The position numbers were made by a program, and so were the translations under genes. A DNA stretch of 64,000 bases from Sulfuriroseicoccus oceanibius (GTDB lineage Bacteria > Verrucomicrobiota > Verrucomicrobiia > Verrucomicrobiales > SLCJ01): assembly GCF_010681825.2 (NCBI RefSeq), contig NZ_CP066776.1, forward strand, positions 2,604,001-2,668,000, written 5' to 3'. The notes under the pieces were generated by a model. It was not told where the DNA came from and did not search any database. It saw only the letters and a program-made list of their open reading frames with translations. Numbering within the stretch: position 1 is the stretch's first letter; each line of letters begins with the position of its first letter. Of the stretch, positions 4,476 through 63,476 are shown piece after piece.

Positions 4476-4514
4476 AAAAAGGCGCGCCCGGATCACTATC
4501 CGGACGCGCCTTTT
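4476..4514 (-). terminator. Rho-independent terminator of the TPR gene
   Basis: Stem arms at 4481-4493 and 4498-4510 (GGCGCG..CCGGAT against ATCCGG..CGCGCC with one unpaired position), read on the minus strand into a T-run (AAAAA at 4476-4480 on the plus strand). It lies 27 bp behind the stop of the TPR gene. Confidence 0.85.
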
Positions 4515-4540
4515 GGCAAACTTTGAGCCCAGAGCTATGC

Positions 4541-5926: not shown

Positions 5927-6089
5927 TGAATGGGGATATTACTAAACGGTTCACAGCCTCTGCCCGCACGCCATTACCTCGAAAACAAGCCAATGCAACA
6001 CACGCCGGGGGCTGACGCGTGATGACAGTGCGTTTATTGGCATGCGGCGTCAAGCATCCAGTCGCAATCGCTCGGACATATCTGAAAAT

Positions 6090-7060: not shown

Positions 7061-7103
7061 TCCGTGATTGCATTCGCGCGCGGGAACCCGTATCTACATC
7101 GCC

Positions 7104-7625: not shown

Positions 7626-7667
7626 CCACACCATCCTCCGCACCCGATGATCCGCCTCCCATTCCTC

Positions 7668-8720: not shown

Positions 8721-8724
8721 GGAA

Positions 8725-9300: not shown

Positions 9301-9302
9301 CC

Positions 9303-10184
9303 TCACTCATGCGGCTCGATGTGGATCACGACATCCTCAAGTTGCGGCATCTTCGCCAATAAATGGTCCTTCACCTCATGGCTGATGCGATGTCCTTCAT
9401 GCACAGTCAAATTTGGATCCACCTCGACGTGTAGCTCCGCGAAATAGTTCACCCCACTCTTGCGGACCACGCATTTCTCCAGCGCCTCCACTCCGCTAAC
9501 CAACGCCGCCTCCTCCACTATCTTCTCACTCACGTCCGAGTCGACCCGCCCGTCCAGGTTCTCGTGCAATGACCGCGAAATGATCCTCCCGCCATTGAGA
9601 AGAATGATCACGCAAGCCACCAGCGCGGCATAATCATCGGCCGCCGCGTATTTCTCCCCCCCGATCAACGCGATTGCAATTCCGACCGCAGCCGCTCCGG
9701 ACGTCAGAGCATCCGATCGATGATGCCAAGCGTCGCCCTCCAACGCCCGGCTATCGTTCACATCCGCCACCGACTGGATCCGCCGCGCGAGAAACTCCTT
9801 CGCTGCAACCACACAAAGCAAAACCGGCAACGTAAACCACGCCGGTCCCTCATGCGGAGTCCTGATCTCGTGCACACTCATCACTGCAATCGACACCCCG
9901 GCCACCACCAGAGCCCCACCGGAAAACATCCCCGCCAGCGACTCGATCCGACCATGCCCAAAGGGGTGGTTCCGATCCGGCGGACGCAGCGACAAATAAA
10001 AGCCCGCCCAAGTCACCAAGGACACCAAAATGTCCGACGCCGACTCCACTCCATCGGCAATCAACGCGGTCGAATGACCGATCACGCCGGCCACGATCTT
10101 CACCACCATCAACACCACGTTGAAAAGCAGCGTCAACAGCCCGAGGCCAATTAGATTTCGGTTCCCGTTCATTTGTCCAATCAT
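9303..10184 (-). CDS. Cation diffusion facilitator (CDF) family transporter
   Basis: Proton-coupled efflux of divalent cations such as zinc, cobalt, manganese or iron. The 293-residue protein has six predicted membrane helices in the first 200 residues. The metal-site pattern HSTALIADGVESASD lies in helix 2, and the NHPFGHGRIESLAGM histidine/aspartate loop follows it. A partner site is present in helix 5 (WHHRSDALTSGAAAVGI, the HxxxD motif). The cytoplasmic ferredoxin-like tail ends with the histidine-rich VVIHIEPHE. The start at 10184 is preceded by GGAG four bases upstream; 10172 is an alternative. The gene stands alone between two repeat islands. Confidence 0.92.
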   Translation of the reverse strand: MIGQMNGNRNLIGLGLLTLLFNVVLMVVKIVAGVIGHSTALIADGVESASDILVSLVTWAGFYLSLRPPDRNHPFGHGRIESLAGMFSGGALVVAGVSIAVMSVHEIRTPHEGPAWFTLPVLLCVVAAKEFLARRIQSVADVNDSRALEGDAWHHRSDALTSGAAAVGIAIALIGGEKYAAADDYAALVACVIILLNGGRIISRSLHENLDGRVDSDVSEKIVEEAALVSGVEALEKCVVRKSGVNYFAELHVEVDPNLTVHEGHRISHEVKDHLLAKMPQLEDVVIHIEPHE

Positions 10185-10254
10185 CAGGCTCCGATCATCA
10201 AAAGCCGTCCCGTGACGATAAGAACAAAGCCCCTCACACAACAGCGAAAACTAC

Positions 10255-11060
10255 ACGACCTGTAGACACTTTGAGTTATCCGCAGATTGTTATAATCTCC
10301 ACCCACCTGTATTCGGACCGCCGGATTGCACCCGGCCACCGACACCGGAGCGAAGCGACCACTCCTAAGGACCCTCACGCAAAGCCCCAAAGATCCCAAA
10401 GATTTCTCATGCCATGCCACTCGTAAACTCACCACCACTCGTAGCAGCTTTGAGGGATCCGCAGATTTCGCAGATTATTATGATTTGTACGCAAGCGTGA
10501 TCGAACCTTCTGAACACATCATCACTCCAAGGTTCAATGATGCCAATCATGTCCCTCATCTGAATCCAGTCTAAAAACAACCCAACCACCGACTCCACCT
10601 GCCGCAGCCACAGCTGCTCGAATTCTCACGCGAAGCCCTCCCCCTTCAAACAACTTCGTGCTCTTAGTATCCTTCGTGATTCTACCACATCTCACGGTCC
10701 GTCTGGGGTCGAACACTCAAATCATCTAGATCACGCCCAAGAAAGAGTGCTCCATATTAAGTGCGGCTGCGCCGGATTCCCTATTCAACCTCAAGGGTGA
10801 GGTTGCTCCATCGACGCCCGTGTTCGTGGCTTTTGTGATCTGTGCGGCCATCGCCCCCGGCTACGCCTGCAATCGAAAGCAGTGATGCTCACTGCACTCC
10901 CAAACAGGTCGCACCGCAGACGCCTGCGCAGAATCATATCCCTCATGTAAATTGCCTGCGGCCATCTCCGCAGGCTCCGATTCTGTCTGAAAAACCTCTC
11001 CATCCCTCGCGCGCAGCGCGCCGACTTCATTTCACCTTTCCAATTTCACCTTTCAGCTTT
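10255..11060. repeat. Intergenic repeat island 4 between divergent CDF and ileS genes
   Basis: No gene seen from 10185 to 11161. Modules in order: TTGAGTTATCCGCAGATTG at 10270, GACCGCCGGATTGCACCCGG at 10316, CTCACGCAAAGCCCCAAAG at 10374, GGGATCCGCAGATTTCGCAG at 10453, TACGCAAGCGTGAT at 10489, CTCACGCGAAGCC at 10627, a diverged CTCTGTGGTTCAAA near 10700, the AACCTCA hairpin module at 10786-10906, GCCTGCGGCCATCTCCGCAG at 10956 and GCGCGCAGCGCGCC at 11018, ending in TTTCCAATTTCACC. This order matches island 1 between about 4040 and 4440. Confidence 0.83.
10786..10906 (+). repeat. Hairpin-bearing repeat module, copy 2
   Basis: Same module as at 4201-4320: the AACCTCA-AGGG-TGAGGTT hairpin has a changed loop but an intact stem, and it ends with CTACGCCTGCAATCGAAAGC and AGTGATGCTCACTGCACTCC. 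The second inverted repeat (AGTGA-TGC-TCACT) is also kept. Confidence 0.8.
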
Positions 11061-11161
11061 GCCCCCCCCTCCGCACGTGACGGCTTCAAAATCAGTCGCT
11101 CGGTTGATATTGGCCAAAGCGGGTGCTAGGCTCCGCCGCACGACATTTTGCCCCGTCGACT

Positions 11162-13903: not shown

Positions 13904-13923
13904 CGATAGAAAGATCCGACAAA

Positions 13924-13951
13924 ACGGGGACGGAAACGTCCCCGTTTTTTT
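13924..13951 (+). terminator. Rho-independent terminator of ileS
   Basis: Perfect stem ACGGGGACG / CGTCCCCGT with a GAAA tetraloop (13924-13945), followed by seven Ts. It lies 20 bp behind the ileS stop. Confidence 0.93.
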
Positions 13952-14059
13952 GTTTCGACATCACGCCGGATCTACTGGATTAGTCCACCGCTGACGCCTC
14001 CCCCGCAGCCGCGCCTATCATTCCAGCTCTCCCAATTTCAACTTTCAGATTTGCCTCCC

Positions 14060-14635
14060 ATGTCCGCCAAATCACTGATTCTCTTCATCACCCTGCCGCT
14101 CTATATCATCGACCAGATCAGCAAATGGTGGATCGTGATGAACTTCGCGCCGCCCCCCTCGATGCCGGCTCCCAGCAACGTCGCAGACCTGGAGTACCAC
14201 ATCACGGTCATCGACGGGTTCCTCAACATCATCCGCGTTCACAATACCGGCGTCGCCTTCGGCATGGGCAATGGCACCACCTGGGCTCCCTTTGTGTTCC
14301 TTGCTGTCCCCCTGATCGCACTCACCATCATCACCATCGCTTGGAAGAAAAAGTTCTTCATTGGATGGACCGGAAAAGCTGCGTTCGCCCTGCTGCTCGC
14401 CGGCATCTTCGGCAACCTGACCGACCGACTGACCCAGGGTTTCGCACTCGAACACCTCAAAGACGAGTCGTTCTGGACCCGACTGATGAACGGCTACGTC
14501 GTCGATTTCATCGATGTCATCCTCCCATTCTACGGCAACTGGCCGACCTTCAACGTCGCCGACTCCTGCATCTGCGTCGCCGCCGTGCTCATGGTCATCT
14601 GCTCGTGGAACGAAGAGCACAATAAGAAGGCCTAG
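14060..14635 (+). CDS. lspA: Lipoprotein signal peptidase (signal peptidase II)
   Basis: Membrane aspartyl protease that removes the signal peptide from prolipoproteins. The 191-residue protein has four predicted membrane helices. The conserved blocks are present: NTGVAFG (residues near 72), GNLTDRL with the first catalytic aspartate, and VVDFIDV...FNVADSCI with the second. The extracytoplasmic stretch between helices is longer than in E. coli LspA (164 residues), with insertions near APPPSMPAPSNVADLEY and ALEHLKDESFW. The ATG at 14060 is preferred over the TTG at 14051. Confidence 0.95.
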   Translation: MSAKSLILFITLPLYIIDQISKWWIVMNFAPPPSMPAPSNVADLEYHITVIDGFLNIIRVHNTGVAFGMGNGTTWAPFVFLAVPLIALTIITIAWKKKFFIGWTGKAAFALLLAGIFGNLTDRLTQGFALEHLKDESFWTRLMNGYVVDFIDVILPFYGNWPTFNVADSCICVAAVLMVICSWNEEHNKKA

Positions 14636-14644
14636 CCCGGCTCG

Positions 14645-15240
14645 ACGCGCGGGGAGCCTGGAGTGACGGTGTCCCCACCGTCGTCGATCACACAGGAGCG
14701 CAGCGACCACTCTCGGAGATTCCCACGCAGAGCCGCAGAGCCGCAGAGGGACCGTATGCGGAGCCTGCCGCGAGGCCGACGCCGCTCGTGTTGGCTTTTT
14801 GTTTTTCCACAGATGAAGAGGATTGGTGGGATTTGTACGCAAGCGTTTTCGGACCGCCGGATTGCACCCGGCCACTAACAGCGGAGCGCAGCGACCACTC
14901 TCGAAGATTCTCACGCAGAGCCGCAGAGGTTCCTCATGCGGGGTCATCACCTCCCGTGGTGGCTGTGAGCTATCCGCGGATTACTATAATTTTACGCGGG
15001 CGTGTGCGGAGCCTGGAGTGACGGTGTCCCACCGTCGTCGATCACACAGGAGCGCAGCGACCACTCCCCACCAAAAACCTAACCACGTAACCACCTAAAA
15101 CTCTTCTCCCCCTTTGCGTCTCTGCGTGAGCCATGAACATTCAAAATCACGTAAATCATGTAAATCCTGTCTTAAAAACTCCTCCTCCCCGCCGGCTCGC
15201 GCGCCCCCTTCTTTCCAACTTTCCGCTTCCAACTTTTCGC
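14645..15240. repeat. Intergenic repeat island 5 between lspA and the NYN gene
   Basis: No gene seen. It opens with the hairpin GACGGTGTCCCCACCGTC at about 14664, then GGAGCGCAGCGACCACTC at 14695, CCCACGCAGAGCCGCAGAGC at 14724, ACGCAAGCG at 14837, GGACCGCCGGATTGCACCCG at 14851, CTCACGCAGAGCCGCAGAGG at 14911, a second GACGGTG hairpin near 15020, GCGTCTCTGCGTGAGCC at 15117 and CATGTAAATCCTGTC at 15157. It ends in CTTTCCAACTTTCCGCTTCC-like pyrimidine-rich words some 20 bp before the NYN start. Confidence 0.82.
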
Positions 15241-15261
15241 TTTGCCGATCACCCTGCGAGC

Positions 15262-16014
15262 ATGCCTCAAAACCCATCCGCAGATAACGATCAGATCGCT
15301 CTGTTAATTGATGCCGACAACGCACCCGCGGCGAAGATCGACTTCATCATCTCCGAGCTCGCCAGCCACGGCGTGGCAAACATTCGCAAAGCCTACGGCA
15401 ACTGGACCAAACGCTCGCTCAAAGGCTGGGAAAACGTACTACACGAGTACGCCATCCAACCCGTCCAGCAATACGACGTCTCCAAGGGGAAAAACGCCGC
15501 CGACATGGCCTTGCTCATCGACGCGCTCGATATCCTCTACACCAAGGACGTCCAAACCTTCTGCCTCGTCTCATCCGACAGCGACTTCACCCCGCTCGTC
15601 TTCCGCCTCCGCGCCGATGGCAAACAAGTCATCGGGTTCGGCCGCAGCAACACGCCCGAACCATTCGTCAATAGCTGCACCCGCTTCATCTACCTGGACG
15701 ACGAACCATCCAGCGACAAGGAATCATCGAGAACCAGCAGCCAAAAGGCCGCCAATAGCGCCAACCAGCTGAAGCAAAACACCAAGCTGATGAACACCCT
15801 GCGCAACGCCGTCCGCGCCACCGCCGATGACGATGGCTGGGCACCTCTTGGCCCGGTCGGTTCACACATCAGCAACCAGGGCCCGTTCGACCACCGTACC
15901 TACGGATTCTCCAAGCTCAGCGACCTCTTCCGCTCGATCGATCTGTTCGAAGTGAAAACGCTCAAAACCTCCAACAGCCACCAGGTCCGCGTACGGTTGA
16001 AGAAGGGGAAATAA
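15262..16014 (+). CDS. NYN-domain ribonuclease-like protein with C-terminal OST-HTH/LOTUS domain
   Basis: A 250-residue protein. Residues of roughly 10-135 form a NYN (PIN-like) domain: LLIDADNAP gives the first acidic residues, KNAADMALLIDALD the second set, and LVSSDSDFTPLV the last acidic pair, so the metal site looks intact and nuclease activity on RNA is plausible. A Ser/Lys/Asn-rich linker leads to a LOTUS (OST-HTH) domain at about 165-245, seen from FDHRTYGFSKLSDLFRSIDL. That domain is thought to bind RNA or RNA-related partners. Bacterial members of this architecture are usually annotated as NYN or DUF88 proteins, and their biological role is not settled. An orphan gene follows 18 bp downstream. 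The start at 15262 removes a repeat-derived leader. Confidence 0.9.
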   Translation: MPQNPSADNDQIALLIDADNAPAAKIDFIISELASHGVANIRKAYGNWTKRSLKGWENVLHEYAIQPVQQYDVSKGKNAADMALLIDALDILYTKDVQTFCLVSSDSDFTPLVFRLRADGKQVIGFGRSNTPEPFVNSCTRFIYLDDEPSSDKESSRTSSQKAANSANQLKQNTKLMNTLRNAVRATADDDGWAPLGPVGSHISNQGPFDHRTYGFSKLSDLFRSIDLFEVKTLKTSNSHQVRVRLKKGK

Positions 16015-16032
16015 CATAGCGCCACCTCTAGT

Positions 16033-16773
16033 ATGCGTCTTAAGAAAACCTACGTCATCAACTGCGGCCTTAGTGAGATCCAGCTCACTAACACAGGCAC
16101 GAACACTTCTACCAGCTACCCACTCGACACAACATCAGGCTACGAAGCTGCGATCCATCGTTTCTTTCTTCGATTTCCAAAACGCCACCTCATTGCGCCA
16201 ATCGGAGTTGTCACGTGGCATCCATTGGTTGAGCCTCCAAAAGGCGCGATAATCTCGGCTATGGAGAAAAAGAGCTCTCTAAGCGAGGTCTATTTCTTCG
16301 ATCCAATGGGCACCTTGGCTTTGAAGCTCCTACAAAGTAAAGCCAAGGAAACCATCACCCCACGGCAAATCATCATCGCTCAGTTCGATCAGCAGATAGT
16401 GAGCTGCATCTTCTTCGCAGGATCCATTTATCACACCACCATCTACGACTATCAGCGATCACCCGACTCGTTGCTGGACCATATCGTTGCGGACCTTCAA
16501 GCGAGACACTATCCTCCGCAGCCTCCCAATAGCGCAGCCCTCCTCAAGACACTCACAGCCGATGAGGGAATTGCAATGCTCAAACAATGGAAAGCTCCCA
16601 TCGGACGGGAGATCGCATGGTTCAACGGACTGAGCACATCCGGCCACATTCCAACATCAACATCCAACGGTGAGTTCACCGTCAAGCATTACGGGAGCTT
16701 CGCCGAAGCCATTCAAACAGGATCTAGCAGCGTGGCTATAGATACAGCTTTGCAGAAACTTGTGCGAAGCTAG
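16033..16773 (+). CDS. Hypothetical protein, possibly co-transcribed with the NYN gene
   Basis: I do not recognise this 246-residue protein. It has no signal peptide and no membrane helix. The N-terminal region (about 1-130) looks like a beta-rich domain (KTYVINCGLSEIQLTN, IAPIGVVTWHPLV, VYFFDPMGTLALKLLQSK, CIFFAGSIYHTTIYDY); the C-terminal part is more helical and Ser/Thr-rich. Codon use differs from its surroundings: by hand count 27 of the first 50 codons end in G or C, against 35 of 50 in the adjacent NYN gene and more in most housekeeping genes here. It starts only 18 bp after the NYN stop and no terminator is seen between them. Recent acquisition is possible. Confidence 0.72.
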   Translation: MRLKKTYVINCGLSEIQLTNTGTNTSTSYPLDTTSGYEAAIHRFFLRFPKRHLIAPIGVVTWHPLVEPPKGAIISAMEKKSSLSEVYFFDPMGTLALKLLQSKAKETITPRQIIIAQFDQQIVSCIFFAGSIYHTTIYDYQRSPDSLLDHIVADLQARHYPPQPPNSAALLKTLTADEGIAMLKQWKAPIGREIAWFNGLSTSGHIPTSTSNGEFTVKHYGSFAEAIQTGSSSVAIDTALQKLVRS

Positions 16774-16870
16774 CTCCCTCAGCCAAAGCCTCCTCATGAC
16801 GGTGGAGACACCGTCACCCCAAGCTCCACCACGCTTTCTTCACATCGGAAAAGACCCTCTCTCCGACCAC

Positions 16871-16914
16871 AAAAAATGCCCACCAGCAAGGTCTCCCCTG
16901 CCGGTGGGCATTTT
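16871..16914 (-). terminator. Rho-independent terminator of gpmI
   Basis: Stem AATGCCCACC at 16875-16884 pairs with GGTGGGCATT at 16903-16912. On the minus strand it runs into a T-tract (AAAAAA at 16871-16876 on the plus strand). It lies behind the gpmI stop. Just upstream, near 16798-16820, an isolated copy of the GACGGTG...CACCGTC hairpin occurs. Confidence 0.85.
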
Positions 16915-16931
16915 GAATTCAGCAGCTGCGC

Positions 16932-18479
16932 TTACTTGGCAGCGCGCAAGGTGTGACCGGTCATTTCGGCCGGTTTGTCCACGCCGAGCAGGTCGAGCAA
17001 GGTCGGCGCGATGTCGGCCAGAATACCATCCTTCATGGTGTACTGGTCGTGATCGGCAGCAACGTACAGGCAGTGCACCAGGTTGGTGGTGTGTGCGGTG
17101 TGCGGCGAGCCGTCCGGGTTGATCATCTTCTCGCAGTTGCCGTGGTCGGCGGTGATGATGAGCTTGCCACCGAGCTCGAGCGTGCGCTCGACCACTTGGC
17201 GGACTCCTTCATCAATGGTCTCCACCGCCTTGATACCCGCTTCGACGATGCCGGTGTGACCGACCATGTCCGGGTTGGCAAAGTTGAGGATCACGAGATC
17301 GAAGTTTTCCAGCTCCTTGACCACAGTGGCGGTCACGGCCGGTGCGCTCATCTCAGGCTGGAGGTCGTAGGTCGCAACCTTTGGCGATGGCTCCACCTTG
17401 TGCACTTCACCGGCGAGCGGCTCTTCCACACCACCATTGAAGAAGTACGTCACGTGCGGATACTTCTCGGTCTCGGCGATGCGCAGCTGGGTCTTGCCTG
17501 CGGCCGAAACCACAGGTCCAAGCACGTTGGTGAGCTCAATCGTTGGGAACGCCACATCACAGTCGAAAGTCTGGTCGTACTCGGTCATCGTCACGTAGTG
17601 CACCTTCGGCACACCGTTGGTCTCAAACTTATCGAAACCATCAACGAGGAACGCCTGCGACAACTGACGCGCACGGTCGGAACGGAAGTTGAAGAACAAC
17701 ACGACGTCACCGTCACGAACGCGACGCTGATTTGCCTCTTCGAACACAAGCGCCGGCATGAACTCGTCGGTCTTCTGCTCGTTCTTGTAAACCTCGGCCA
17801 CTGCCTCGGATGGCAGCACCTGGGTCTCTGTGCCCACGCCGTCGACAATCGCATCCCAGCCAAGCTTGGTGCGCTCCCAACGGTTGTCGCGGTCCATGGC
17901 GTAATAGCGGCCCACCACGGTTGCGATGCGCGCTCCCGATGTCTTGAGTCCTTCTTCCACGGTGCGGAGGTATTCAGCACCGCCGGTTGGCGACGTGTCG
18001 CGGCCGTCGGTGATCGCGTGGACCATGATGTCGTTCACGCCGGCATCCTTGGCTGCAGCAGCGAGGGCGACCAAGTGGTCCTGATGACTGTGCACACCAC
18101 CGTCGGACACGAGACCGACCAAGTGAAGTCGGCTGTCACCGGTTGCCTTGGCGAATGCGTTCTTGAGTACTTCGTTGTCGGCAAGCTCGCCGTCAGCGAT
18201 GGTCTTGTTGATGCGGGTGAGGTCCTGATAAACGATGCGGCCCGCGCCCAAGTTGAGGTGCCCCACTTCCGAGTTGCCCATCTGTCCTTCAGGGAGGCCA
18301 ACGTCATTGCCGCTGGCGCTCACCTTACTCATTGGATAGGTCGCGTACAGATGATCGTGGAATGGAGTGTTGGCGAGAAGCGTGGTGTTGCCTTCTGCCT
18401 CTGCTGCGGCCTGACCGTTGGGCGCGATGCCCCAACCGTCACGGATGATCAAAACGACTGGACTATTTTTTGTGCTCAT
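16932..18479 (-). CDS. gpmI: 2,3-bisphosphoglycerate-independent phosphoglycerate mutase
   Basis: Converts 3-phosphoglycerate to 2-phosphoglycerate in glycolysis with two manganese ions. The 515-residue alkaline-phosphatase-superfamily protein opens with IRDGWGIAPNG (metal aspartate), carries the catalytic serine in GQMGNSEVGHLNLGAG, the substrate block HAITDGRDTSPTGG, and the late metal ligands in NFANPDMVGHTG and ITADHGNCEKM. All are intact. Length is normal for the family. The gene stands apart from the gapA-pgk-tpiA cluster at 50-53 kb. Confidence 0.97.
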   Translation of the reverse strand: MSTKNSPVVLIIRDGWGIAPNGQAAAEAEGNTTLLANTPFHDHLYATYPMSKVSASGNDVGLPEGQMGNSEVGHLNLGAGRIVYQDLTRINKTIADGELADNEVLKNAFAKATGDSRLHLVGLVSDGGVHSHQDHLVALAAAAKDAGVNDIMVHAITDGRDTSPTGGAEYLRTVEEGLKTSGARIATVVGRYYAMDRDNRWERTKLGWDAIVDGVGTETQVLPSEAVAEVYKNEQKTDEFMPALVFEEANQRRVRDGDVVLFFNFRSDRARQLSQAFLVDGFDKFETNGVPKVHYVTMTEYDQTFDCDVAFPTIELTNVLGPVVSAAGKTQLRIAETEKYPHVTYFFNGGVEEPLAGEVHKVEPSPKVATYDLQPEMSAPAVTATVVKELENFDLVILNFANPDMVGHTGIVEAGIKAVETIDEGVRQVVERTLELGGKLIITADHGNCEKMINPDGSPHTAHTTNLVHCLYVAADHDQYTMKDGILADIAPTLLDLLGVDKPAEMTGHTLRAAK

Positions 18480-18689
18480 AAATTGGGTTGGTAAATCTGG
18501 ATACCACCGCAGCCCATGGCCCCGGAGGTTTGGAATGTTCCCCTACACCAATTGACCAAGCTCCCCGTCGTGCAAGTGAAAGCCGTGCCAAGCGGCCAAA
18601 CTTGTACGGTTTGAACGGGAAATCCGGGAGAACCGCCGAGTTCCCTTCCAAATTCCGTGGCGATCACGTCCGAATGCGGCATGATGCGC

Positions 18690-19225
18690 CCGCCTCACCG
18701 CTTCTCACGCAAAGGCGCGGTGGGTTCTGATGCGGAGCCGAGCGCGAGAATTACATCAAACGTAGTGGCTTTGAGGAATCCGCAGATTTCGCAGATTGTT
18801 GTGATTTTTGCGCAAGCGTGGAGTGACGGTGTCCCCACCGTCGTCTATCGCCCCGGAGCACCGCGACCTCTTTCTTTAATTGTCACGCAAAGACGCAGAG
18901 GCGCAAAGACTTCTCATGCAATGTCGCGGGCTGGAGCATCATCTCACCTAGTGGCTTTGGGGGATCCGCAGATTGCGCAGATTGTTATGATTTTGCGCAA
19001 GCGTGGAGTGACGGTGTCCCCACCGTCGGCAACTCACCTGCGAGCAGCGCGCGCTTTCATTTCAGCTCTCCAATTTCAGCTTTCAAATTTCCCCTGCACA
19101 AGCGCCCTCCGACCGCCGGATTTCACCCGGCCACCAACGACGGAGCGAAGCGACCACTTCGGACCAGAGTTCCGAGCTATGCCTCTGTGACCTCTGAGTC
19201 CTCTATGGTTCAACCTCAGAAAGCG
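18690..19225. repeat. Intergenic repeat island 6 between gpmI and the cobA-hemD gene
   Basis: No gene seen. Two complete composite units in tandem, at about 18705-18865 and 18878-19085. Each has CTCACGCAAAG (TGTCACGCAAAGACGCAGAG in the second), ATCCGCAGATT..GCAGATTGTT, GCGCAAGCGTGGAGTGACGG with the GACGGTGTCCCCACCGTC hairpin, and in the second also CATTTCAGCTCTCCAATTTC. GACCGCCGGATTTCACCCGG at 19109, GGAGCGAAGCGACCACT at 19140 and a CTCTGTGACC...CTCTATGGTTCAA pair follow. The stretch 18490-18690 looks unique and holds the promoter region of gpmI. Confidence 0.83.
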
Positions 19226-24422: not shown

Positions 24423-25976
24423 GTGTCTGATTCACCTCCCCCAAACCCCACCAAATCCTCTTCGTCATCACGCAGCAAACGCTCGCGGCGCAAGTTGATC
24501 ATCCCTGAAGCCGACCGCCCGCGACCAATCGCTGAAACCGCCATCATCCTGGTGCTCATCGCCTTGGTGATCGGCCCTTTGGTGCTCGGCTCCTACTACG
24601 AACCCTACCGCTGGCCTCTGCTGATCGTGTCAGCGCTGGCCACCGTCGTCGCCTGGTTCGACAAAGGAACATGGCGCAAACCTCCTTGGCTGCTTTGGGT
24701 ATTGATCACCGGACTCATCGCCCACGCCGGGTGGATGACATACAACGCATGGGGCAACTACCTCACCGATCCGTTCGATTGGGACAAACAGATCGTCCAG
24801 CGAGCCGACCAGCCTCACCCCGACCTCCCCGGCGCCATGGCGCTAAATGAAAGCCTCGACCGCATCACTTATATCATCCCCTGCCTCCTGTTGGTGTGGA
24901 TCGTGCGTTCACTGTGCATTACCCGACCGAACTTCCTGCGCAGGGTTCTGACCACCCTCTTCTGGTCTGGCACCGCCATTGGCATCCTCGGACTGCTACA
25001 ACAGTTCACAGAAGCCAAAGGCATCTTTTGGAGCGAAGAGCTCAGCTGGAAATACCTAAGCCTCTTCTTCGCCACCTTCCGCAGCCCCGGCATCGCCTCC
25101 ACCTACCTCAATGTCTGCCTCGCCGCAGGTCTGGGCTTGGCGCTCCATCACCCAGGTGGCAGATTGCGCCCTGGCAAAGCCGTACTCTATGCTATCGGCA
25201 GCGTGATTCTCGCCTCCGCCGTGGTCGCCGCCGGATCCAAAGCGGGCATCGTCCTCGCCGGCGTTACACTCTTGCTATTCCTGGCAATGAACCTGCGCAC
25301 CATGAGCTCGCTCTTCTTCAAGAAGCGCGATGCCGTCGGCCCAAAGCGCATCGAGCGCCTCACTCTCACTGTAGCGCTCCTCGCCATCCTGTCACTCGGA
25401 GCACTCTCGCTGGCTGAACTTCAAGTCAAACGCTGGGAGAAAGCAATCGACACCGACTTCGGCTCGTGGCAAGCACGGGTCAAAATGAACGAGGTCCAGA
25501 TCCACATGATGACGGACAAAGCGTGGAGCCCACTCCTGGGCTACGGCGTGGGATCGTTCCACCCGCTGTTCCCAGTCTTCAAGAACCAGGTCGACGAAAA
25601 GATCTACGGCGAGGTCTACTACTCTCACAACGACTACCTTCAAACATTGGTAGAGTGGGGATGGGGCGGCACCGGCGCCTTCATCCTCCTCATTGGTGGT
25701 GGTGTCGGTCTGCTGTTCGTCGAGATCATCTTCCGCTCACGCCATCACCGACGCAGCCAACTGGTACTTCTGCGCTCGGTATTCATCGGCATGTTCACCT
25801 TCCTGCTGCACGCCAATGTCGACTTCCCATTCCAGATCGAATCCCTGGCCGTGATTTTCGCGGTGCTGCTGGGCATCGGCTGGGCCAGCCCCCATTTGCG
25901 CAACCAAAAGCCACGCAAAAAGAAGTCCAAGTCCCGCCGCGAACCAAAACCTGAGGGTGCAACTCAGAATGGGTAA
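24423..25976 (+). CDS. O-antigen ligase/polymerase family membrane protein
   Basis: A 517-residue protein with ten or more predicted membrane helices and the Wzy_C-type core. A long periplasmic loop after about residue 320 carries ARVKMNEVQIHMMTDKAWSP, GYGVGSFHPLFP and YYSHNDYLQTLVEWG. The HNDYLQ segment is typical of O-antigen ligase (WaaL) and related polymerases that handle lipid-linked glycans. The N-terminus is Ser/Lys-rich (KSSSSSRSKRSRRK) and cytoplasmic; the C-terminus ends in a basic tail. The start is a GTG at 24423. No other polysaccharide genes flank it, so ligase and polymerase roles cannot be separated. Confidence 0.87.
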   Translation: MSDSPPPNPTKSSSSSRSKRSRRKLIIPEADRPRPIAETAIILVLIALVIGPLVLGSYYEPYRWPLLIVSALATVVAWFDKGTWRKPPWLLWVLITGLIAHAGWMTYNAWGNYLTDPFDWDKQIVQRADQPHPDLPGAMALNESLDRITYIIPCLLLVWIVRSLCITRPNFLRRVLTTLFWSGTAIGILGLLQQFTEAKGIFWSEELSWKYLSLFFATFRSPGIASTYLNVCLAAGLGLALHHPGGRLRPGKAVLYAIGSVILASAVVAAGSKAGIVLAGVTLLLFLAMNLRTMSSLFFKKRDAVGPKRIERLTLTVALLAILSLGALSLAELQVKRWEKAIDTDFGSWQARVKMNEVQIHMMTDKAWSPLLGYGVGSFHPLFPVFKNQVDEKIYGEVYYSHNDYLQTLVEWGWGGTGAFILLIGGGVGLLFVEIIFRSRHHRRSQLVLLRSVFIGMFTFLLHANVDFPFQIESLAVIFAVLLGIGWASPHLRNQKPRKKKSKSRREPKPEGATQNG

Positions 25977-26089
25977 CCCGAACCCGCTCGAGGCCTGATA
26001 CAACAAACTTTCATAAGGCAGCTCGTCCGCATTACGAGCCGACCGGTGAACGCGTGCCCCAAGGATTCAACGGCGGAAAGACCCTACAA

Positions 26090-26173
26090 GTCGCGGAGCG
26101 ACGGATTACCGGTTAGCCGGAGGTTTTCAACCTCCGGGTACAACACCGCAGAGCAACGCGTCCCAACGGGACG
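26090..26173 (+). repeat. Multi-hairpin repeat element, copy 1 (three hairpins)
   Basis: Three stem-loops in a row: GTCGC-GGA-GCGAC at 26090-26102; CCGGAGG at 26117-26123 pairing with CCTCCGG at 26131-26137; CGTCCC-AAC-GGGACG at 26159-26173. The linker between the first two is GGATTACCGGTTAG. Related copies are at 56720-56801 and 62895-62941. It lies between the stop of the O-antigen ligase gene and the gcvH terminator. Confidence 0.85.
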
Positions 26174-26201
26174 AATTACCCTAACTTCCCGCCTCCCCAA
26201 C

Positions 26202-26275: not shown

Positions 26276-26653
26276 TTATCCCAGAAGCTCGCGGTACTGG
26301 TCGGCGGAAAGCATTCCGTCGAGGTCTGCCACGTCGTTCACTTTGAGGCGGTAGATCCAGCCTTCACCGTATGGGTCGGTGTTGACCAGGTCTGGCTCGT
26401 CTGCGAGGCCTTCGTTACCCTCGACAATCACACCATCAACCGGTGCGTAAATGTCGCTGGCTGCCTTCACCGACTCCACCACTGCAGCAGGGTCGCCGGC
26501 TTCAAGCGCCTCATCAGCATCAGGCACCTCGACAAACACAACGTCGGTCAATTCTTCCTGTGCGTGGTCGGTGATACCAACAGTGATGGTGTCGCCTTCG
26601 ATACGAATCCATTCGTGGGATTCGGTGTATTTCAAATCATCTGGAACGTTCAT
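26276..26653 (-). CDS. gcvH: Glycine cleavage system H protein
   Basis: Lipoyl carrier that shuttles the aminomethyl group between the P, T and L proteins. The 125-residue protein reads NVPDDLKYTESHEWIRIEG at the start, has the lipoylation lysine in VVESVKAASD, and ends with SADQYRELLG. The start at 26653 matches the family; the longer upstream frame is leader. It follows gcvT by 47 bp. gcvP lies 9 kb away in the same orientation, with other genes between. Confidence 0.97.
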   Translation of the reverse strand: MNVPDDLKYTESHEWIRIEGDTITVGITDHAQEELTDVVFVEVPDADEALEAGDPAAVVESVKAASDIYAPVDGVIVEGNEGLADEPDLVNTDPYGEGWIYRLKVNDVADLDGMLSADQYRELLG

Positions 26654-26700
26654 AATTCTGGTGATGGTTGGACAGGTTCGCTGCTTCCAAAGCAACCGAT

Positions 26701-28759: not shown

Positions 28760-29095
28760 CCATAGCCCGGCATCGCGTGATGCCCTCCCTCCGACGGTGA
28801 GGGTACCCTCACGCCATCCCGACCAAATGGAGGCTCGATCTCTACAACCGTGGGATCGACACCTTCGAAAAGGAGCGCAGCGACCTCTCTCCCCCCTTTG
28901 CGTCTCTGCGTCTTTGCGTGAGCATTCACCCAAAGCGCCGAATGACGGAGCGGCCCCGTCAACGGCGAGGACAACGTCACCCCCCCCATAGAGGCTCGAT
29001 ACAGCACCCACGAAATCGACACCTCCCAACAGGACCGCAGCGACCGCTCTCCACCTTTGCGTCTTCGCGTCTCTGCGTGAGTACCCCCTACTCCC
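28760..29095. repeat. Intergenic repeat island 7 between convergent genes
   Basis: Two tandem partial units without a gene. Each has the pattern of a GACGG..TGAGG..CCTCA region, GGAGGCTCGAT(C/A), a short GAAATCGACAC or GGGATCGACAC word, GGA(G/C)CGCAGCGACC and the terminal CTTTGCGTC(T/_)...TCTGCGTGAG, at about 28790-28925 and 28955-29085. A C8 tract lies at about 28979-28987. The unit starts found in islands 1-6 (CTCACGCAAAG) are missing here, so this island is made of right-hand modules only. Confidence 0.75.
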
Positions 29096-54570: not shown

Positions 54571-56421
54571 ATGGGCCAGATCAAAGCGCAGCTAACCGAT
54601 GCTTGGGAGTTTCTCACCAAGCGCGGCGCATGGCGCCCGATGCTCACAGTGCATATCGCGGTCCTGCTGCTCTCGGCATTGCTGTTCACCCCGATCACCG
54701 CGGCCACCGTCCGCACCTTGGTCTCCCTCTCCGGCCGCGCCGCGCTTAGCGACACGGAGATCGCATCGTTCCTGCTCAACCCGGCAGGCGCCATCGCCGC
54801 TCTAGCGATCACATCCATCGCTCTGACCATCGCGATCCTGGACTACGCGGCGCTAATGACCACGGCCTGGGCCTTGCATCGGGGTGAACCCGCCACCCTC
54901 ATGGCAACCGCCGCCAGAATCCGAGGCACCGCCCCCGCTCTGGTCAAACTCGCGCTGCGCCTCATCCTGCGTTGCCTCGCCGCCGCACTTCCATTCATCG
55001 CCGGCATTGGAGCCACCTACTGGGGTTTGCTGCGCCACAACGACATCAACTACTACCTCGCCGAGCAGCCGCCGGAGTTCATCACTGCGGTCATTATTGC
55101 CACCTTGTTACTCATCGCACTTGGTGTCGTGTTGATTCAAATCACGGTCTCTTGGTTTTATGCGCTGCCGCTGGTGCTCTTCCGCCACGAGTCATCCAAA
55201 CAAGCCAAAGCCCACAGCGAAGAGACGACCAAAGGGCAGCGCAAAGCCATCGCAATGTGGCTCGGGCTCTGGATCTTCGGCACCCCCATTCTCATCTCAC
55301 TTCTCAACAGCCCACTCACCTTTGGCGCTCGCTGGCTGATCCCACACCTTCGCGATCACCTGCCGGCATTGTCACTCGCCCTAGGGTCGGCATTAGTCCT
55401 CACCACGACCTTGTCGTTTCTAACCGGCTTCGCAACTCTGTCTCTCCTCGCCTACCGCAACGTGCGAATGTTCGCAGCCGCAGGCCTGGACCTCCCCACC
55501 ACCGACAGCCCAAAGCCCGAAGCCAAACCTCACGTCCCACTCGGCGAAAAGTCACTCCTCGCTTTAGCCGCATTGGTTTTGCTCTTCTCCGGCGCCCTCA
55601 CCTACCGATGGCTCGGTCAAATCCAGATGCGCGACGAGACTCTGATCATCGCCCACCGCGGCGCATCCGCCACCGCCCCGGAGAATACAATGGCGGCCAT
55701 CTACCAAGCACTTGAGGATGGCGCTCATTGGGTGGAAATCGACGTCCAGGAGACCGCCGACGGCGAGATCGTACTCTTCCACGACAGCGACTTCAAGCGC
55801 GTCGGGCGCACCGCTCTGAACATATGGGACGCCCAATCGTCCGATCTGGACCAAATCGAAATCGGCTCGTGGTTCGCCCCTGAATTTGCAAGCGAGACCA
55901 CCCCCACCCTTCGCCAAGCTCTGGAAGCCTGTCGCAACCGCGCCGGCGTTCTTATCGAACTCAAATATTACGGTCACGATGAAATGCTAGAGCAACGAGT
56001 GATCAACATCGTCGAAGACCTGCAGATGGTCGACCAAGTCATGATTATGTCCCTCCAACGCCCGGGCATCGAGAAAGTTCGCCAATTGCGCCCGGATTGG
56101 AAAATCGGGCTTCTCTCGTCCGTCGCAGTCGGCGATCTCACCCGTCTCGACGTCGACTTCCTCGGCCTCAACGCACGCGCCGCAACCAAGCCGCTGATTG
56201 AACGCGCCCACCGCGCGGGTATCGACGTCTTCGTCTGGACCGTCAACGACCCAATTTCAATGTCGTCACTCACCTCGCGCGGCGCCGACGGATTAATCAC
56301 CGACAAGCCAGCACTCGCCCGCGACGTGCTGCAACAACGCAAGGACCTCAACCCAGGCGAACGCCTGCTACTCGAACTCGCCCACATCTTCGGCAGCCCC
56401 AGCCGCCAGCTGGAACAGTAA
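54571..56421 (+). CDS. Membrane-anchored glycerophosphodiester phosphodiesterase
   Basis: A 616-residue protein of two parts. Residues of about 20-350 form a membrane domain with six or more predicted helices, resembling the 'glycerophosphoryl diester phosphodiesterase membrane domain'. Residues of about 355-600 are the GDPD barrel: LIIAHRGASATAPENTMAAI (catalytic HR...E), VEIDVQETADGEIVLFHDSD (metal and catalytic residues), LIELKYYGHDEM and the late FVWTVNDPI. Hydrolysis of glycerophosphodiesters to glycerol-3-phosphate is expected. A MITE copy begins four bases after its stop. Confidence 0.93.
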   Translation: MGQIKAQLTDAWEFLTKRGAWRPMLTVHIAVLLLSALLFTPITAATVRTLVSLSGRAALSDTEIASFLLNPAGAIAALAITSIALTIAILDYAALMTTAWALHRGEPATLMATAARIRGTAPALVKLALRLILRCLAAALPFIAGIGATYWGLLRHNDINYYLAEQPPEFITAVIIATLLLIALGVVLIQITVSWFYALPLVLFRHESSKQAKAHSEETTKGQRKAIAMWLGLWIFGTPILISLLNSPLTFGARWLIPHLRDHLPALSLALGSALVLTTTLSFLTGFATLSLLAYRNVRMFAAAGLDLPTTDSPKPEAKPHVPLGEKSLLALAALVLLFSGALTYRWLGQIQMRDETLIIAHRGASATAPENTMAAIYQALEDGAHWVEIDVQETADGEIVLFHDSDFKRVGRTALNIWDAQSSDLDQIEIGSWFAPEFASETTPTLRQALEACRNRAGVLIELKYYGHDEMLEQRVINIVEDLQMVDQVMIMSLQRPGIEKVRQLRPDWKIGLLSSVAVGDLTRLDVDFLGLNARAATKPLIERAHRAGIDVFVWTVNDPISMSSLTSRGADGLITDKPALARDVLQQRKDLNPGERLLLELAHIFGSPSRQLEQ

Positions 56422-56628: not shown

Positions 56629-56719
56629 CAGTAGTCACATTTCAATGATCTCCTCGGCGCGCCCGGCGGAGATCACCCCAGTAACAAAGACTTCGGTCGC
56701 CAAGAGTCCTCTCCAAGTC

Positions 56720-56801
56720 GTCGCGAAGCGACAGCTTACCGGTTAGCCGGAGGTTTCAACCTCCGGATAGGAGCGCACGCATAAGGCGTCCCGCAGGGAC
56801 G
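56720..56801 (+). repeat. Multi-hairpin repeat element, copy 2 (three hairpins)
   Basis: GTCGC-GAA-GCGAC at 56720-56732; CCGGAGG at 56747-56753 pairs with CCTCCGG at 56760-56766; CGTCCC-GCA-GGGACG at 56787-56801. The linker between the first two is AGCTTACCGGTTAG. The first and third loops differ from copy 1 while all stems pair. It lies behind the minus-strand glycosyltransferase genes and could act as their terminator region, though there is no T-run. Confidence 0.85.
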
Positions 56802-56831
56802 GTTTACACTGAGAGACGGTTGATCCTGCAA

Positions 56832-58067
56832 CTACCCTTCCACAGGCCGCGCCAGCTGCACCGCCTCGTCGTAGCAATCCTCGAGCACCGCCACCTGCGA
56901 CTCGAGCCCGAAGTTCTTTCGTACGGACTCCGCAGCGCCGCGGGACAAGTCGGCAAGCAACGCAGGATCACCCAGCACACGCATTCCGGCCGCAGCCAGT
57001 TCACCAGGTGACTTCTCAGGCACCAACAAACCATCCTTACCGTCGGTCACCGCTTCCGGGATCCCGCCATGCAAAGTCGCCACCACCGGCAGCCCGGCAG
57101 CCATCGCTTCCAGCATCGCATTCGGCACCCCTTCCTGGTCCTCGGTCTCGGTGAGCTCACTCGGATGCCAAAACACATGCCCACGGCGGAATTCATCGCG
57201 CAACTGCTCCTGGTTCAACCAGCCGAGCAACTCCACATTTTCCTGCAGCCCTGCCTCGGCAACCGCTGCCTCAAAGGCTTCACGTGACGGACCATCGCCG
57301 CACAGCACAAACTTCAAGCGTGGCCACTCAGTGACCATGACCTTCAACGCCTCAAGCGTAGTGAAAAGCCCCTTCTTGGGAATCAATCGCGACGCCTGGA
57401 CAATCCGCCACTGACCGTCTTCGGGAGCCTCGCGCACAAATGTCTGCGAGTCATCAAATGGGATCGGCGTGTTGTTCAAACGCAGCTTCTCCCGCGGGCA
57501 CCCGAGCTCCTCGAGCTTGTCGAGCAACGATCGGCTGCGAGCCAACACCAGCTGGGCATCGCGGAAAACCGCCTTCATCTTGTCGGCATAGCCCTCCTGG
57601 TCGAAAAACTTCACCACGTCCACACCGTGGAACGAAACAATCCACGGACCACCCCACGCGTGCAGCATCTCGTGGTACTTCACCGCCTTGTGCCCGTAGT
57701 AAACATGCACCAACGCAGGGTCATGTTTCGCCAATAAATCCGGCATATCATACGGATAGTACGGCTTCACCTCGCGGTTGATCGGGCGCGGCGGCGGCCA
57801 CTGCTTGATCACATGCTTATACCAGAAGCGCAGGAGGAAGTTCCCCTTCAACCGTGGGCGCACCTGCTTGGTCATCACTTCGAGTGCATCCACGGGAAAC
57901 ATCTCCGCGTTCTGATGCTGCTCGGTGAAAACCACCGTGCGGTAACGCTGTAAATTGTCGATCTGACGGTAGACACTCTGCATCTCCGGCTTGAGGAATG
58001 TACCACAAGCCGACACCACTACCGGACGCTCATCCGCCTCAGAGGCCGGATCAACCTTCGCCGCCAT
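56832..58067 (-). CDS. Glycosyltransferase, family 4 type
   Basis: A 411-residue GT-B glycosyltransferase. The acceptor half starts VVVSACGTFLKPEMQSVYRQ and contains LVHVYYGHKAVKYHEML and SFHGVDVVKF. The donor half has RLIPKKGLFTTLEALK, CGDGPSREAFEAAV and the signature EGVPNAMLEAMAAGLPVVAT, with the donor-binding glutamate. It resembles colanic-acid-type transferases (WcaL-like). It overlaps its upstream neighbour by one base (TAATG). The two are paralogues, both with the start pattern SYCTTFLKPEM or SACGTFLKPEM. Substrate unknown. Confidence 0.9.
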   Translation of the reverse strand: MAAKVDPASEADERPVVVSACGTFLKPEMQSVYRQIDNLQRYRTVVFTEQHQNAEMFPVDALEVMTKQVRPRLKGNFLLRFWYKHVIKQWPPPRPINREVKPYYPYDMPDLLAKHDPALVHVYYGHKAVKYHEMLHAWGGPWIVSFHGVDVVKFFDQEGYADKMKAVFRDAQLVLARSRSLLDKLEELGCPREKLRLNNTPIPFDDSQTFVREAPEDGQWRIVQASRLIPKKGLFTTLEALKVMVTEWPRLKFVLCGDGPSREAFEAAVAEAGLQENVELLGWLNQEQLRDEFRRGHVFWHPSELTETEDQEGVPNAMLEAMAAGLPVVATLHGGIPEAVTDGKDGLLVPEKSPGELAAAGMRVLGDPALLADLSRGAAESVRKNFGLESQVAVLEDCYDEAVQLARPVEG

Positions 58068-60504: not shown

Positions 60505-60537
60505 CTCGCTCCCCATTTGCTCCCAATCCCCCACTCC

Positions 60538-62502
60538 ATGTCCCGTCGCTTCATCCTCGGAACCGCAGGCCACATCGACCACGGCAAATCCAGCCTGGTT
60601 CGCGCCCTCACCAATGTCGATCCCGACCGCCTGCCCGAAGAAAAACGCCGCGGCATGACGATCGAGCTCGGGTTCGCGCACCTCACTCTCGATGACTCGG
60701 CAGGCGATCAAATCGAAGTCGGTATCGTCGACGTCCCAGGCCACGCCGACTTCATCAAAAACATGGTCGCAGGCGCGGCGGCCATTGACGGCGTGCTACT
60801 CGTGGTCGCTGCTGATGACGGATGGATGCCTCAGTCGGAAGAACACCTCCAGATTCTCGAATACCTCGGCGTGCGCCGCGCCGTGATCGCGCTCACCAAG
60901 GCCGACCTCTCGGAGGACCCTGAATTCGCCGTCGAGATGCTGCGCGATGACTTGCAAGACAGTCACTTCGCCGAATCTCCCATCATTCCGGTCAGCAGCA
61001 CCACGGGCGCAGGGATCGCCACGTTGCGCGACGAGTTGGTCCGGATGATTGAGTCCGCTCCGCTCCCTCGCGACACCGGAAAGCCCCGCCTGCCCATCGA
61101 CCGCGCATTCTCACCCACCGGCGTCGGCACGGTAGTCACCGGCACGCTGACGCGCGGTACTCTCTCAGTTGGCGATCCTGTCATTCTTACCCCAGCCGGC
61201 ACGGAAGGCAGCATCCGGGGTATCCAAAACCACAACGCAAGTGTCCCAGCGGCCGAGGCATCAATGCGCACTGCCATCAACCTCTCGGACATCGCTCTCG
61301 CATCCTCGGTTGGAAAGCGGGGCGCAGCCCGCGGACAAACCCTCACCACACCGCGCTTTGCCACCACGACGGACACACTGGATGTCGTCATCTCCCGCAC
61401 GGCCCGCCACCACATCTCCGCATCCGACCGCGAGGTGAAATTGGGGCACCTCGGCCACGTTCACATCCACCACGCCGGCTCGCTCCACCGCGCTCGGCTC
61501 GTTCTCGACGTTTCTGTGCAACGTCAGATCGAACCCGGTCAATCGGCCATCGCCCAGCTCCGGTTCAACGAACCAATCCATGCATTCGCCGGTGACCGCT
61601 TCCTCGTCCGCGACGGCAGCCAACAACACACCATCGCAGGCGGTGAGGTGCTCCACCCATTTGGCAACCGCAGATGGTTCCACAAGGAGGAATACCAGCA
61701 TTTCCTCGCCCAGCGCGTCGAAAACCGGGACGACCACGGAGTCACCGCCGAAACACTCGTCGAAACACTGGTCCACCACGACAAGATCATCAGCGACCCC
61801 TCGGTTCTCGATTACACGGACCGCTCGGATGCCGAACTCAATGCCGCCATCGACGCATTGGAGTCAAATGGAATCGCCCTGCGTACCCCGAACGGCATCG
61901 TCGACCAACAATGGTGGCAGAAAGTCGCCGCAAAAGCCGAGGCGGAAGTAGATGCATTCCACGAAGCCAAACCGGAACTCCCAGGCATCCCGGTGCTCAA
62001 ACTTCAGAAAGCGCTCGGACGCGCCGCCGGTGACGACCGCATCTTCCACAGCCTCCTGCGCCACCTCTCGACTGCCGGCATCGAACGCACCGGCGTCAAC
62101 GTCCACCGCGCCGGCTACACGCCGCAGCTCCCGCCCGCTATCCAACCGATCGCGGAGAAAATCCTCCAGCAACTCGACACCGATCCGATCAACCCACCGA
62201 CCAAAAAGGAGCTCGCAACAGCCCCTAACGAGATCAAAGCTCTCAGCTTCCTCATCCGTCAGGGCAACGTGATCGAACTGGACGACAAATGCGTCATCTC
62301 CACCGCAGGCTACGCACAGATCAAACAAGCTGTCGTTGCATTTATCGAAGCCCAGGGCCCGGCCCGTGCCGCCGACTTAAAAACCGCCGCCGGCACCACC
62401 CGCAAGATCATGATGCCCGCCCTCGAACGCCTCGACGCCGACGGCATCACCGCCCGCGACGGCGACTTCCGCCACCTCAAAGCCCCACAGCCCACGGCCT
62501 AA
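60538..62502 (+). CDS. selB: Selenocysteine-specific translation elongation factor
   Basis: Brings Sec-tRNA to UGA codons marked by a SECIS element. The 654-residue GTPase has G1 [15 protein letters not shown]3 [13 protein letters not shown]4 TKADL, then three beta-barrel domains ([19 protein letters not shown]) and a C-terminal region of winged-helix repeats (about 430-654) for mRNA binding. The last domain ([26 protein letters not shown]) resembles the SECIS-binding helix. Its length fits SelB (E. coli 614). The start at 60538 gives [17 protein letters not shown]. The gene sits just after rdgB. selA and tRNA-Sec are not in the window. Confidence 0.95.
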
Positions 62503-62855: not shown

Positions 62856-62894
62856 CCATCAACGAACCGATGTACCTACCACCCCGCCCCCCCC

Positions 62895-62941
62895 ATCGCA
62901 GAGCGATGACTTACCGGTTAACCTGCGGTTTCAACCGCAGG
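62895..62941 (+). repeat. Multi-hairpin repeat element, copy 3 (two hairpins)
   Basis: ATCGC-AGA-GCGAT at 62895-62907; CCTGCGG at 62922-62928 pairs with CCGCAGG at 62935-62941. The linker is GACTTACCGGTTAA. In both stems bases differ from copies 1 and 2 on both sides at once (G-C to A-T in the first; two pairs in the second), so pairing is preserved. The third hairpin is missing. Confidence 0.85.
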
Positions 62942-63023: not shown

Positions 63024-63476
63024 TTACTTAAGAAGCTTGGCGAAATCGGAAAGCTTGAGGGTCACCTGGGCTTCTTGACCACGCTCGATGTAGATTGGCA
63101 CTTCGGTACCTTCCTTCACAATCTTAGCAGGAGCAGCGCCCTCATTGATCTCAAATCCTTCGAGACCGATCCACTCAAAGCGCACTTTGAAGTTGTCATC
63201 GAACGAAGGCTTAAACTGCACATTCAATCCATTCGCATTGAGAATATTCTGCAACTTACGACCTGCAGCAATCTGCTCGTCGACGGTCAGTGGACCACCA
63301 GTGCTGGAAGCAGCACCGCCGCCTGCACTGTTACGGGTCAAACCCAACTTGCGCTTGGTGGTTGCTACGGTAGCAATCGAAACACCGTGACGTTCAGCAA
63401 TTTCAGCACCGGTTCCATTGCCTGCTTTCAAGTCAGCAACCAATGCTTCTTTTTGTTCTGGAGTAAGTCTAGCCAT
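63024..63476 (-). CDS. Small protein with N-terminal helix-turn-helix
   Basis: A 150-residue protein. Residues of about 5-48 form a helix-turn-helix (PEQKEALVADLKAGNGTGAE, RHGVSIATVATTKRKLGL) of the transposase/resolvase-like type. A Gly/Ser/Ala-rich linker (about 50-65) follows. The C-terminal part (about 66-150) has a small beta-rich domain (VQFKPSFDDNFKVRFEWIG, VPIYIERGQEAQVTL) that I do not recognise. A DNA-binding role is likely, the rest is open. It lies upstream of sucB on the same strand in reverse gene order, with sucB's terminator between. Confidence 0.7.
   Translation of the reverse strand: MARLTPEQKEALVADLKAGNGTGAEIAERHGVSIATVATTKRKLGLTRNSAGGGAASSTGGPLTVDEQIAAGRKLQNILNANGLNVQFKPSFDDNFKVRFEWIGLEGFEINEGAAPAKIVKEGTEVPIYIERGQEAQVTLKLSDFAKLLK

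Follow-up and report, generated by a model that had tools for sequence, protein, structure and literature searches.

The Y1 transposases of IS608, ISDra2 and TnpA-REP bind to hairpins of DNA and are guided by the bases at the 5' foot of the hairpin to a cleavage tetranucleotide on single-stranded DNA (PMC6006769). The TnpA-REP enzymes, or RAYTs, are of class 2; in REPtrons, each family of REP/REPIN repeats brackets its own Y1 transposase gene and is dispersed in the genome. In TIRtrons, a tyrosine transposase gene lies between longer inverted repeats that are found again as dimers in the genome, and the enzymes (TIRYTs) are class 2 proteins, most of them with HTH tails (Di Nocera et al. 2013, PMC3733652). 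The known elements of the IS200/IS605 family (subclass 1.1) are without terminal inverted repeats (PMC2817692). TnpA-Y1 subclass 1.2 is related to IS200 and lacks IS properties; its signature is Y...Q..HH, it was reported mostly from Cyanobacteria and Bacteroidetes, and no REP partner is listed for it (Quentin et al. 2018, PMC6006769). Finally, Acido-Lenti-1 (RF01687) entered the literature as a probable, and probably not cis-regulatory, RNA found in Acidobacteria and Lentisphaerae (Weinberg et al. 2010, PMC2864571); in a paper of June 2026 it is described as little known, and regulation of nearby protease genes is proposed (PMC13298647).

We have analysed a hairpin repeat of Sulfuriroseicoccus oceanibius which can be compared with all of these. 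Like the repeats of REPtrons, it is palindromic, intergenic and dispersed, it has an (N)TAG foot and forms inverted doublets, and each family brackets a Y1 transposase gene of its own. Unlike them, it goes with a putative subclass 1.2 enzyme instead of a class 2 one, its unit is a three-hairpin structure of about 90 nt where a REP is one hairpin of 20-40 nt, and its foot is TTAG, CTAG, ATAG or CAG where that of REPs is mostly GTAG. With TIRtrons it shares the longer inverted repeats around the gene and their recurrence as dimers, but its enzyme is of class 1, and the TIRtron motif GGGGWSAS is found in 1 of 106 units. By the features tested, the system is neither RAYT/REP, nor a normal IS200/IS605 element, nor a TIRtron. 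We consider it likely that this motif represents a non-autonomous DNA element of the REP/REPIN kind, and that the three-hairpin class to which it belongs comprises the cognate partners of subclass 1.2 IS200-like HUH transposases.

Results

Three copies in the window

The unit observed here (about 90 nt) consists, in this order, of hairpin H1, about 12 nt ending in TTAG or CTAG, hairpin H2, about 25 nt, hairpin H3 and the tail GTTTAC. The initial annotation had described three copies in the window (i.e. the whole stretch of 64,000 nt that was analysed), at 26090-26173, 56720-56801 and 62895-62941; all are present there, with the stems, loops and linker that it gave. The full unit extends further, to the GTTTAC-like tail, and ends at 26179 in copy 1 and at 56807 in copy 2; these two copies are complete, and the third hairpin is absent in copy 3.

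Copy 1 (26088..26179, +; covariance-model match at G000:C1:2630088-2630179, 78.6 bits) is a type A-like unit (see below) with H1, linker, H2, spacer, H3 and tail, all on the + strand. Its H1, GTCGC-GGA-GCGAC, lies at 26090..26102 (stem pairs 3:15 to 7:11 in the alignment), and the conserved linker TTACCGGTTA at 26106..26115 makes, together with the next G, the TTAG foot of H2. The latter, CCGGAGG-TTTTCAA-CCTCCGG (26117..26137), has covarying pairs; H3, CGTCCC-AAC-GGGACG (26159..26173), is followed by AATTAC (consensus GTTTAC). Copy 2 (56718..56807, +; G000:C1:2660718-2660807, 99.3 bits) is a complete type A unit with H1 at 56720..56732 (+), H2 at 56747..56766 (+) preceded by TTAG, and H3 at 56787..56801 (+) followed by GTTTAC. 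Copy 3 (62893..62941, +) is shortened to H1-linker-H2 and gave a weak model match (G000:C1:2666893-2666976, 55.3 bits): its H1, ATCGC-AGA-GCGAT (62895..62907, +), carries the type B base pair, and its H2 is CCTGCGG-TTTCAA-CCGCAGG (62922..62941, +). The linker motif TTACCGGTTA has 3 exact matches in the window and 4 when one mismatch is allowed, for 0.79 expected; none of 100 shuffles reached 4.

Convergent gene pairs flank all three copies: an O-antigen ligase-like (Wzy_C) gene (24423..25976, +) and the gene for the glycine cleavage H protein (26276..26695, -) around copy 1, a glycerophosphodiester phosphodiesterase gene (54571..56421, +) and a group 1 glycosyltransferase gene (56832..58067, -) around copy 2, a SelB-like elongation factor gene (60517..62502, +) and a gene without Pfam match (63024..63476, -) around copy 3.

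Other intergenic repeat families, some of them with many copies, are densely packed at 3200-19200 and 28870-29090 of the window (GGAGCGCAGCGACC, TTTGCGTCTTCGCGTCTCTGCGTGAG, AGGATTCTCACGCAGAGACGC and others). A repeat with the AACCTCACTCTTGAGGTT palindrome occurs at 4200-4332, 6834-6904 and 10785-10916 and, in inverted orientation and up to 58 kb away, at 62600-62837, where it is found twice immediately upstream of copy 3.

A dispersed family with covarying stems

When the 3.50-Mb genome was searched with a covariance model, as the initial annotation had proposed, 106 copies were obtained at E <= 1e-3, three of them in the window. Genome-wide, TTACCGGTTA has 36 matches against 5 for a reversed control pattern. 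Two subtypes were seen on reading all exact matches. Type A is GTCGC-NNN-GCGAC, NNN, TTACCGGTTAG, CCGGAGG-TTTCAA-CCTCCGG, about 25 nt, CGTCCC-NNN-GGGACG, GTTTAC; type B is ATCGC-NNN-GCGAT, NNN, TTACCGGTTAG, CCAGCGG-ATTCAT-CCGCTGG, about 25 nt, CGCGCC-NNN-GGTGCG, GTTTAC. The foot of H2 is TTAG in 54 and CTAG in 37 of the 106 units (91 together).

The compensatory stem changes that had been inferred from the three window copies hold genome-wide. In an alignment of 43 of the 106 copies, 96.6% of the stem cells were paired (versus a shuffled mean of 85.1%), 103 cells were changed on both sides (versus 38), and the covariation score was 0.321 (versus 0.119); double-sided changes affected 8 pairs, and sliding the partners by 1-3 columns brought pairing down to 31-46%. 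The base pair that distinguishes the subtypes in H1 is A-U in 18 and G-C in 25 of the 43 copies. Unpaired changes as common in the stems as in the loops would have refuted the structural interpretation; this was checked on the same 43 copies and was not the case. These data showed that the hairpin structure is under selection. The initial proposal, of either selection on a structure or a hairpin element that replicates, is thereby supported, the copies forming a dispersed hairpin repeat family, of which replication or mobility has not been demonstrated.

Fifteen A units face a B unit, with a spacing of 16-28 nt and always as a convergent A-B heterodimer. Single units favour one replication strand (52:24, p 0.0018; 45:24, p 0.015 with neighbours collapsed): if the origin and the terminus are near 0.47 and 2.25 Mb, an approximate placement based on the sign change of sampled GC skew, the lagging-strand template more often carries the complement of the sense in which the unit is written here. 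The skew itself is strong (about 0.1 to 0.3 absolute) in most sampled stretches of G000:C1. The spread of the elements is uneven, with about 9 of the 106 between 1.0 and 2.0 Mb of that contig. Two local features were also noted: short tandem arrays of 7-9-base units (e.g. CACGTCCCA or GTTGTCGAG) adjoin the outer H1 side of several units (L033:780-1310, L034:2005-2210 and the flanks at G000:C1 71337, 239459 and 1676302), and at G000:C1:3178417-3179882 (L039) a segment of about 400 bp, with one A and one degenerate B unit, is present three times in tandem.

Flanks and context were analysed on stretches around all 106 copies. Joining the flanks revealed no clean empty site within these stretches of genome DNA: the strong junction-spanning matches were the element's own locus or other copies, and the rest were weak. 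In the nearest relative, a genome of the same genus (G001), the unit family had no match. There, gcvH is followed by a terminator-like hairpin without unit, and this locus does not provide a clean empty site because its left neighbour is not syntenic. An exact 31-base pattern found no match in the collection of genome contigs, hence the unit family itself is narrow. Of the eight NF033573 matches in the G001 genome, one is a classical subclass 1.1 IS200.

Transposase genes bracketed by units

The genome contains seven PF01797 matches. At one of its loci, L033, an A unit (L033:1310-1400, +) and a B unit (L033:1901-1991, -) enclose an IS200-like tnpA gene of 151 aa (G000:C1:3195947-3196402), the stop codon of which is a few bases from the A unit; no tnpB was seen beside it. 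The initial annotation had proposed to look for a RAYT-type transposase, and one A/B pair does enclose a Y1 (HUH) transposase gene, but the enzyme cannot be counted among the RAYTs proper: it has the catalytic motif Y...Q..HH, it passed the NCBIfam IS200 model NF033573 (79 bits for a cut-off of 55) and failed the NCBIfam model REP_Tyr_transpos (25 bits for a cut-off of 80). A profile search against PDB returned IS200/IS605-type transposases, including the ISHp608 TnpA (solved IS608-type structures).

By its motifs (DHVH, WQ and YIETQREHH), the L033 TnpA is provisionally placed in subclass 1.2, with which it agrees in DH[IV]H, WQ, Y...Q..HH, size (about 148-151 aa, the criterion for the subclass being about 148 aa), low copy number and low identity between copies. 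The published trait of having no REP or typical terminal structure nearby is not met, inverted three-hairpin units flanking the gene; this trait is a negative description and not a diagnostic motif. In the open literature, to which the search was limited (subscription papers and supplements being outside its scope), no description of repeats beside subclass 1.2 genes came up.

Altogether, three IS200-like tnpA genes were found (at L032, L033 and L034; 150-162 aa), which have the DHVH motif in common and are about 37% identical, and there are no near-identical full tnpA-bearing copies in the genome. Those of L032 and L034 are also bracketed by units, of the same layout and of other sequence. 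These units have 34 (L032) and 5 (L034) matches in the genome, and each tnpA therefore has its own repeat family. Two more Y1 proteins (L035:1228-1818, 196 aa; L036:1432-2115, 227 aa) resemble RAYTs, i.e. are class 2-like.

Recurrence at tnpA loci of other bacteria

A sample of 113 tnpA loci was assembled from the NF033573 matches in 57 genomes of the order and from 80 named loci of many phyla; it numbers 111 loci (222 flanks) without the two subclass 1.1 loci. The Y...Q..HH motif is present in 78 of the 80 named loci, and 108 of 110 tnpA loci are subclass 1.2-like. To find inverted repeats, the upstream flank of each gene was matched against its own reverse-complemented downstream flank, cross-locus comparisons serving as controls. 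For the 110 usable loci, the two of subclass 1.1 included, the best inverted repeat across the gene was above the 95% control level in 84 and above the 99% level in 62; 26 did not exceed the 95% level. Only 9 of 87 distal flanks (600-900 nt) exceeded the control level. Direct repeats are also raised near tnpA, which is consistent with clusters of units.

The layout itself recurs. With no foot requirement, H1, H2 and H3 were found at the expected spacing in 101 of the 222 flanks; the three bases before H2 were TAG in 50 of them, CAG in 20 and AAG in 8 (NAG in 78), and H2 started with CC in 73. When the foot was required, both outer hairpins were present in 84 flanks; dinucleotide shuffles gave 0.3, and 4 were obtained among 196 distal flanks. 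The gaps cluster at 10-13 nt between H1 and H2 and at 18-28 nt between H2 and H3; the antisense strand gave 19 layouts, as expected of palindromes. Example loci come from Verrucomicrobiota, Planctomycetota, Acidobacteriota, Bacteroidota, a Chlamydiae MAG, a Nitrotoga and deltaproteobacteria. Compared with subclass 1.2 as published, flanking repeats are here the rule, and the range takes in Verrucomicrobiota, Planctomycetota, Acidobacteriota and a Chlamydiae MAG, among others. Dispersal varies: in Granulicella mallensis there are 58 matches to the unit, many of them in convergent doublets with 11-14 nt between the partners, and in Kaistella copies were found only around the tnpA gene, none of them dispersed.

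Could the units simply be MITEs of the IS200/IS605 family, i.e. deletion derivatives of a normal mobile IS? The enzyme is above the IS200 family cut-off and is homologous to the HUH/Y1 transposases of IS200/IS605, whose class is known for its recognition of DNA hairpins; in addition, taking the gene out of the tnpA-bearing locus would leave what looks like an A-B doublet. We nevertheless regard this as unlikely. The ends are here inverted repeats, which known IS200/IS605 elements do not have; no tnpB was seen beside the L033 gene; the low identity of the three tnpA genes and the want of near-identical full copies do not fit a multicopy IS; and long inverted repeats and the three-hairpin layout are both absent from the two classical subclass 1.1 loci that were tested.

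Acido-Lenti-1 and the RNA hypothesis

At gathering thresholds, no Rfam family matched in the window. The RF01687 model matches the complement of H1-linker-H2 in many units, at several loci on both sides of tnpA: its two hairpins and 12-nt linker correspond to H2, linker and H1 of the units on the other strand. It differs from the unit in that it ends before H3 and handles the motif as an RNA. Where tested, the window family is below the cut-off of 37, with 34.4 bits for the L033 unit and 28.6 bits for a sub-threshold match over H2-linker-H1 of copy 2 (56719..56766, -; E 7.8e-5 for 301 bases searched), and the sister family beside the L032 tnpA passes it (45 bits). The window family is a divergent relative.

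A third hairpin is present at the expected H3 place in 17 of 22 well-placed RF01687 loci, versus 21% of random 60-nt windows; two loci with the match off the assumed position were left out of this count. Over 57 genomes, the numbers of RF01687 matches and of strong tnpA matches are correlated (Spearman 0.71; 0.53 if family f2, where both are missing, is left out); presence or absence is also associated (p 2e-7), an effect that is not significant without f2 (p 0.13). Of 40 tnpA loci that had been taken without regard to similarity, no more than 2 pass the RF01687 cut-off. That RF01687 covers all such units can thus be rejected, and it therefore covers one branch of a wider class. Taken together, these results suggest that the Acido-Lenti-1 'RNA' family is part of a transposon-like DNA repeat.

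The converse, that the unit acts as an RNA (a small RNA, a bidirectional terminator or a stabiliser of mRNA 3' ends) and that the transposase link is incidental or ancestral, seems quite improbable to us, in spite of the curation of RF01687 as an sRNA, of its match to the H2-linker-H1 half of many units and of the tolerance of G-U pairs in H3. Gene context can be read in its favour: of 65 independent element regions, 33 were between convergent genes, 21 between codirectional ones and none between divergent ones (the other 11 being at the edge of a stretch or overlapping a called gene, with genes called simply from codon usage). The elements, which were not found in divergent gaps although these make up 18% of the intergenic bases in the window, thus lie downstream of genes. 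Orientation relative to codirectional genes, however, is random (20 same, 16 opposite). No T-run was seen after H3, and downstream of copies 1 and 3 there are terminator-like hairpins that are separate from the unit. A terminator as the main function was rejected because of this lack of T-run and of the random orientation. Nor would fixed convergent doublets and the bracketing of tnpA be expected of an RNA.

Discussion

The proposal that the units are classical GTAG REPs of a RAYT (class 2 TnpA-REP) has very little left to support it: the (N)TAG-foot hairpin, the dispersed inverted doublets and the two class 2-like proteins of the genome agree with it, but RAYT membership is rejected by the Y...Q..HH motif of the bracketed enzyme, in place of Y...NP, and by the failed RAYT model, the unit has 90 nt and three hairpins, and the GT[AG]G foot criterion of class 2 REPs is not met, this foot being rare in the window family.

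We thus retain the reading of the units as non-autonomous partners of subclass 1.2 transposases. By analogy, there is a good chance that the system works like a REPtron with its REPINs. In the absence of biochemical data, the recognition and the mobilisation of the units, the place of cleavage and the use of single-stranded DNA are all inferred, and the following scheme is a proposal. H1, H2 and H3 would fold when their strand is single-stranded, most likely as lagging-strand template during replication. A TnpA dimer would recognise H2 and its (N)TAG foot, in the geometry of GTAG and hairpin in classical REPs. Its sites of cutting and rejoining would lie at or close to the TTAC of the conserved linker and the GTTTAC tail behind H3. 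In an autonomous locus, the order would be A-unit, tnpA, B-unit, the two units pointing towards each other; dispersed copies would be A-B doublets that lack the gene, besides solitary units and degenerate remnants, to which the three window copies belong. TnpA would copy or move the A-B doublets.

In its broader form, the model is that subclass 1.2 TnpA and three-hairpin units make up a cross-phylum REPtron-like system, parallel to RAYT/REP, whose enzyme spreads the three-hairpin composite as A-B doublets, and that Acido-Lenti-1 is a fragment of its DNA substrate and not primarily an RNA. We lean towards this model without holding it as settled. Several points speak against the explanation as a whole: no clean empty site was found in the stretches around the copies or in the nearest relative, a single tnpA would have to serve 106 copies, 26 of 110 loci do not exceed the 95% control level, the Kaistella units are not dispersed, some layouts are also given by the antisense strand (as palindromes would lead one to expect), the presence/absence association of RF01687 is not significant without f2, and the foot in the window family is not GT[AG]G.

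The substrate of subclass 1.2 transposases has so far been unknown, and the flanking three-hairpin units are a concrete candidate for it. If Acido-Lenti-1 is a transposase-associated repeat, annotations such as the regulation of protease genes need rereading. Finally, the (N)TAG foot with its hairpin, common to class 1 and class 2, bears on the origin of REPs and of their transposases.
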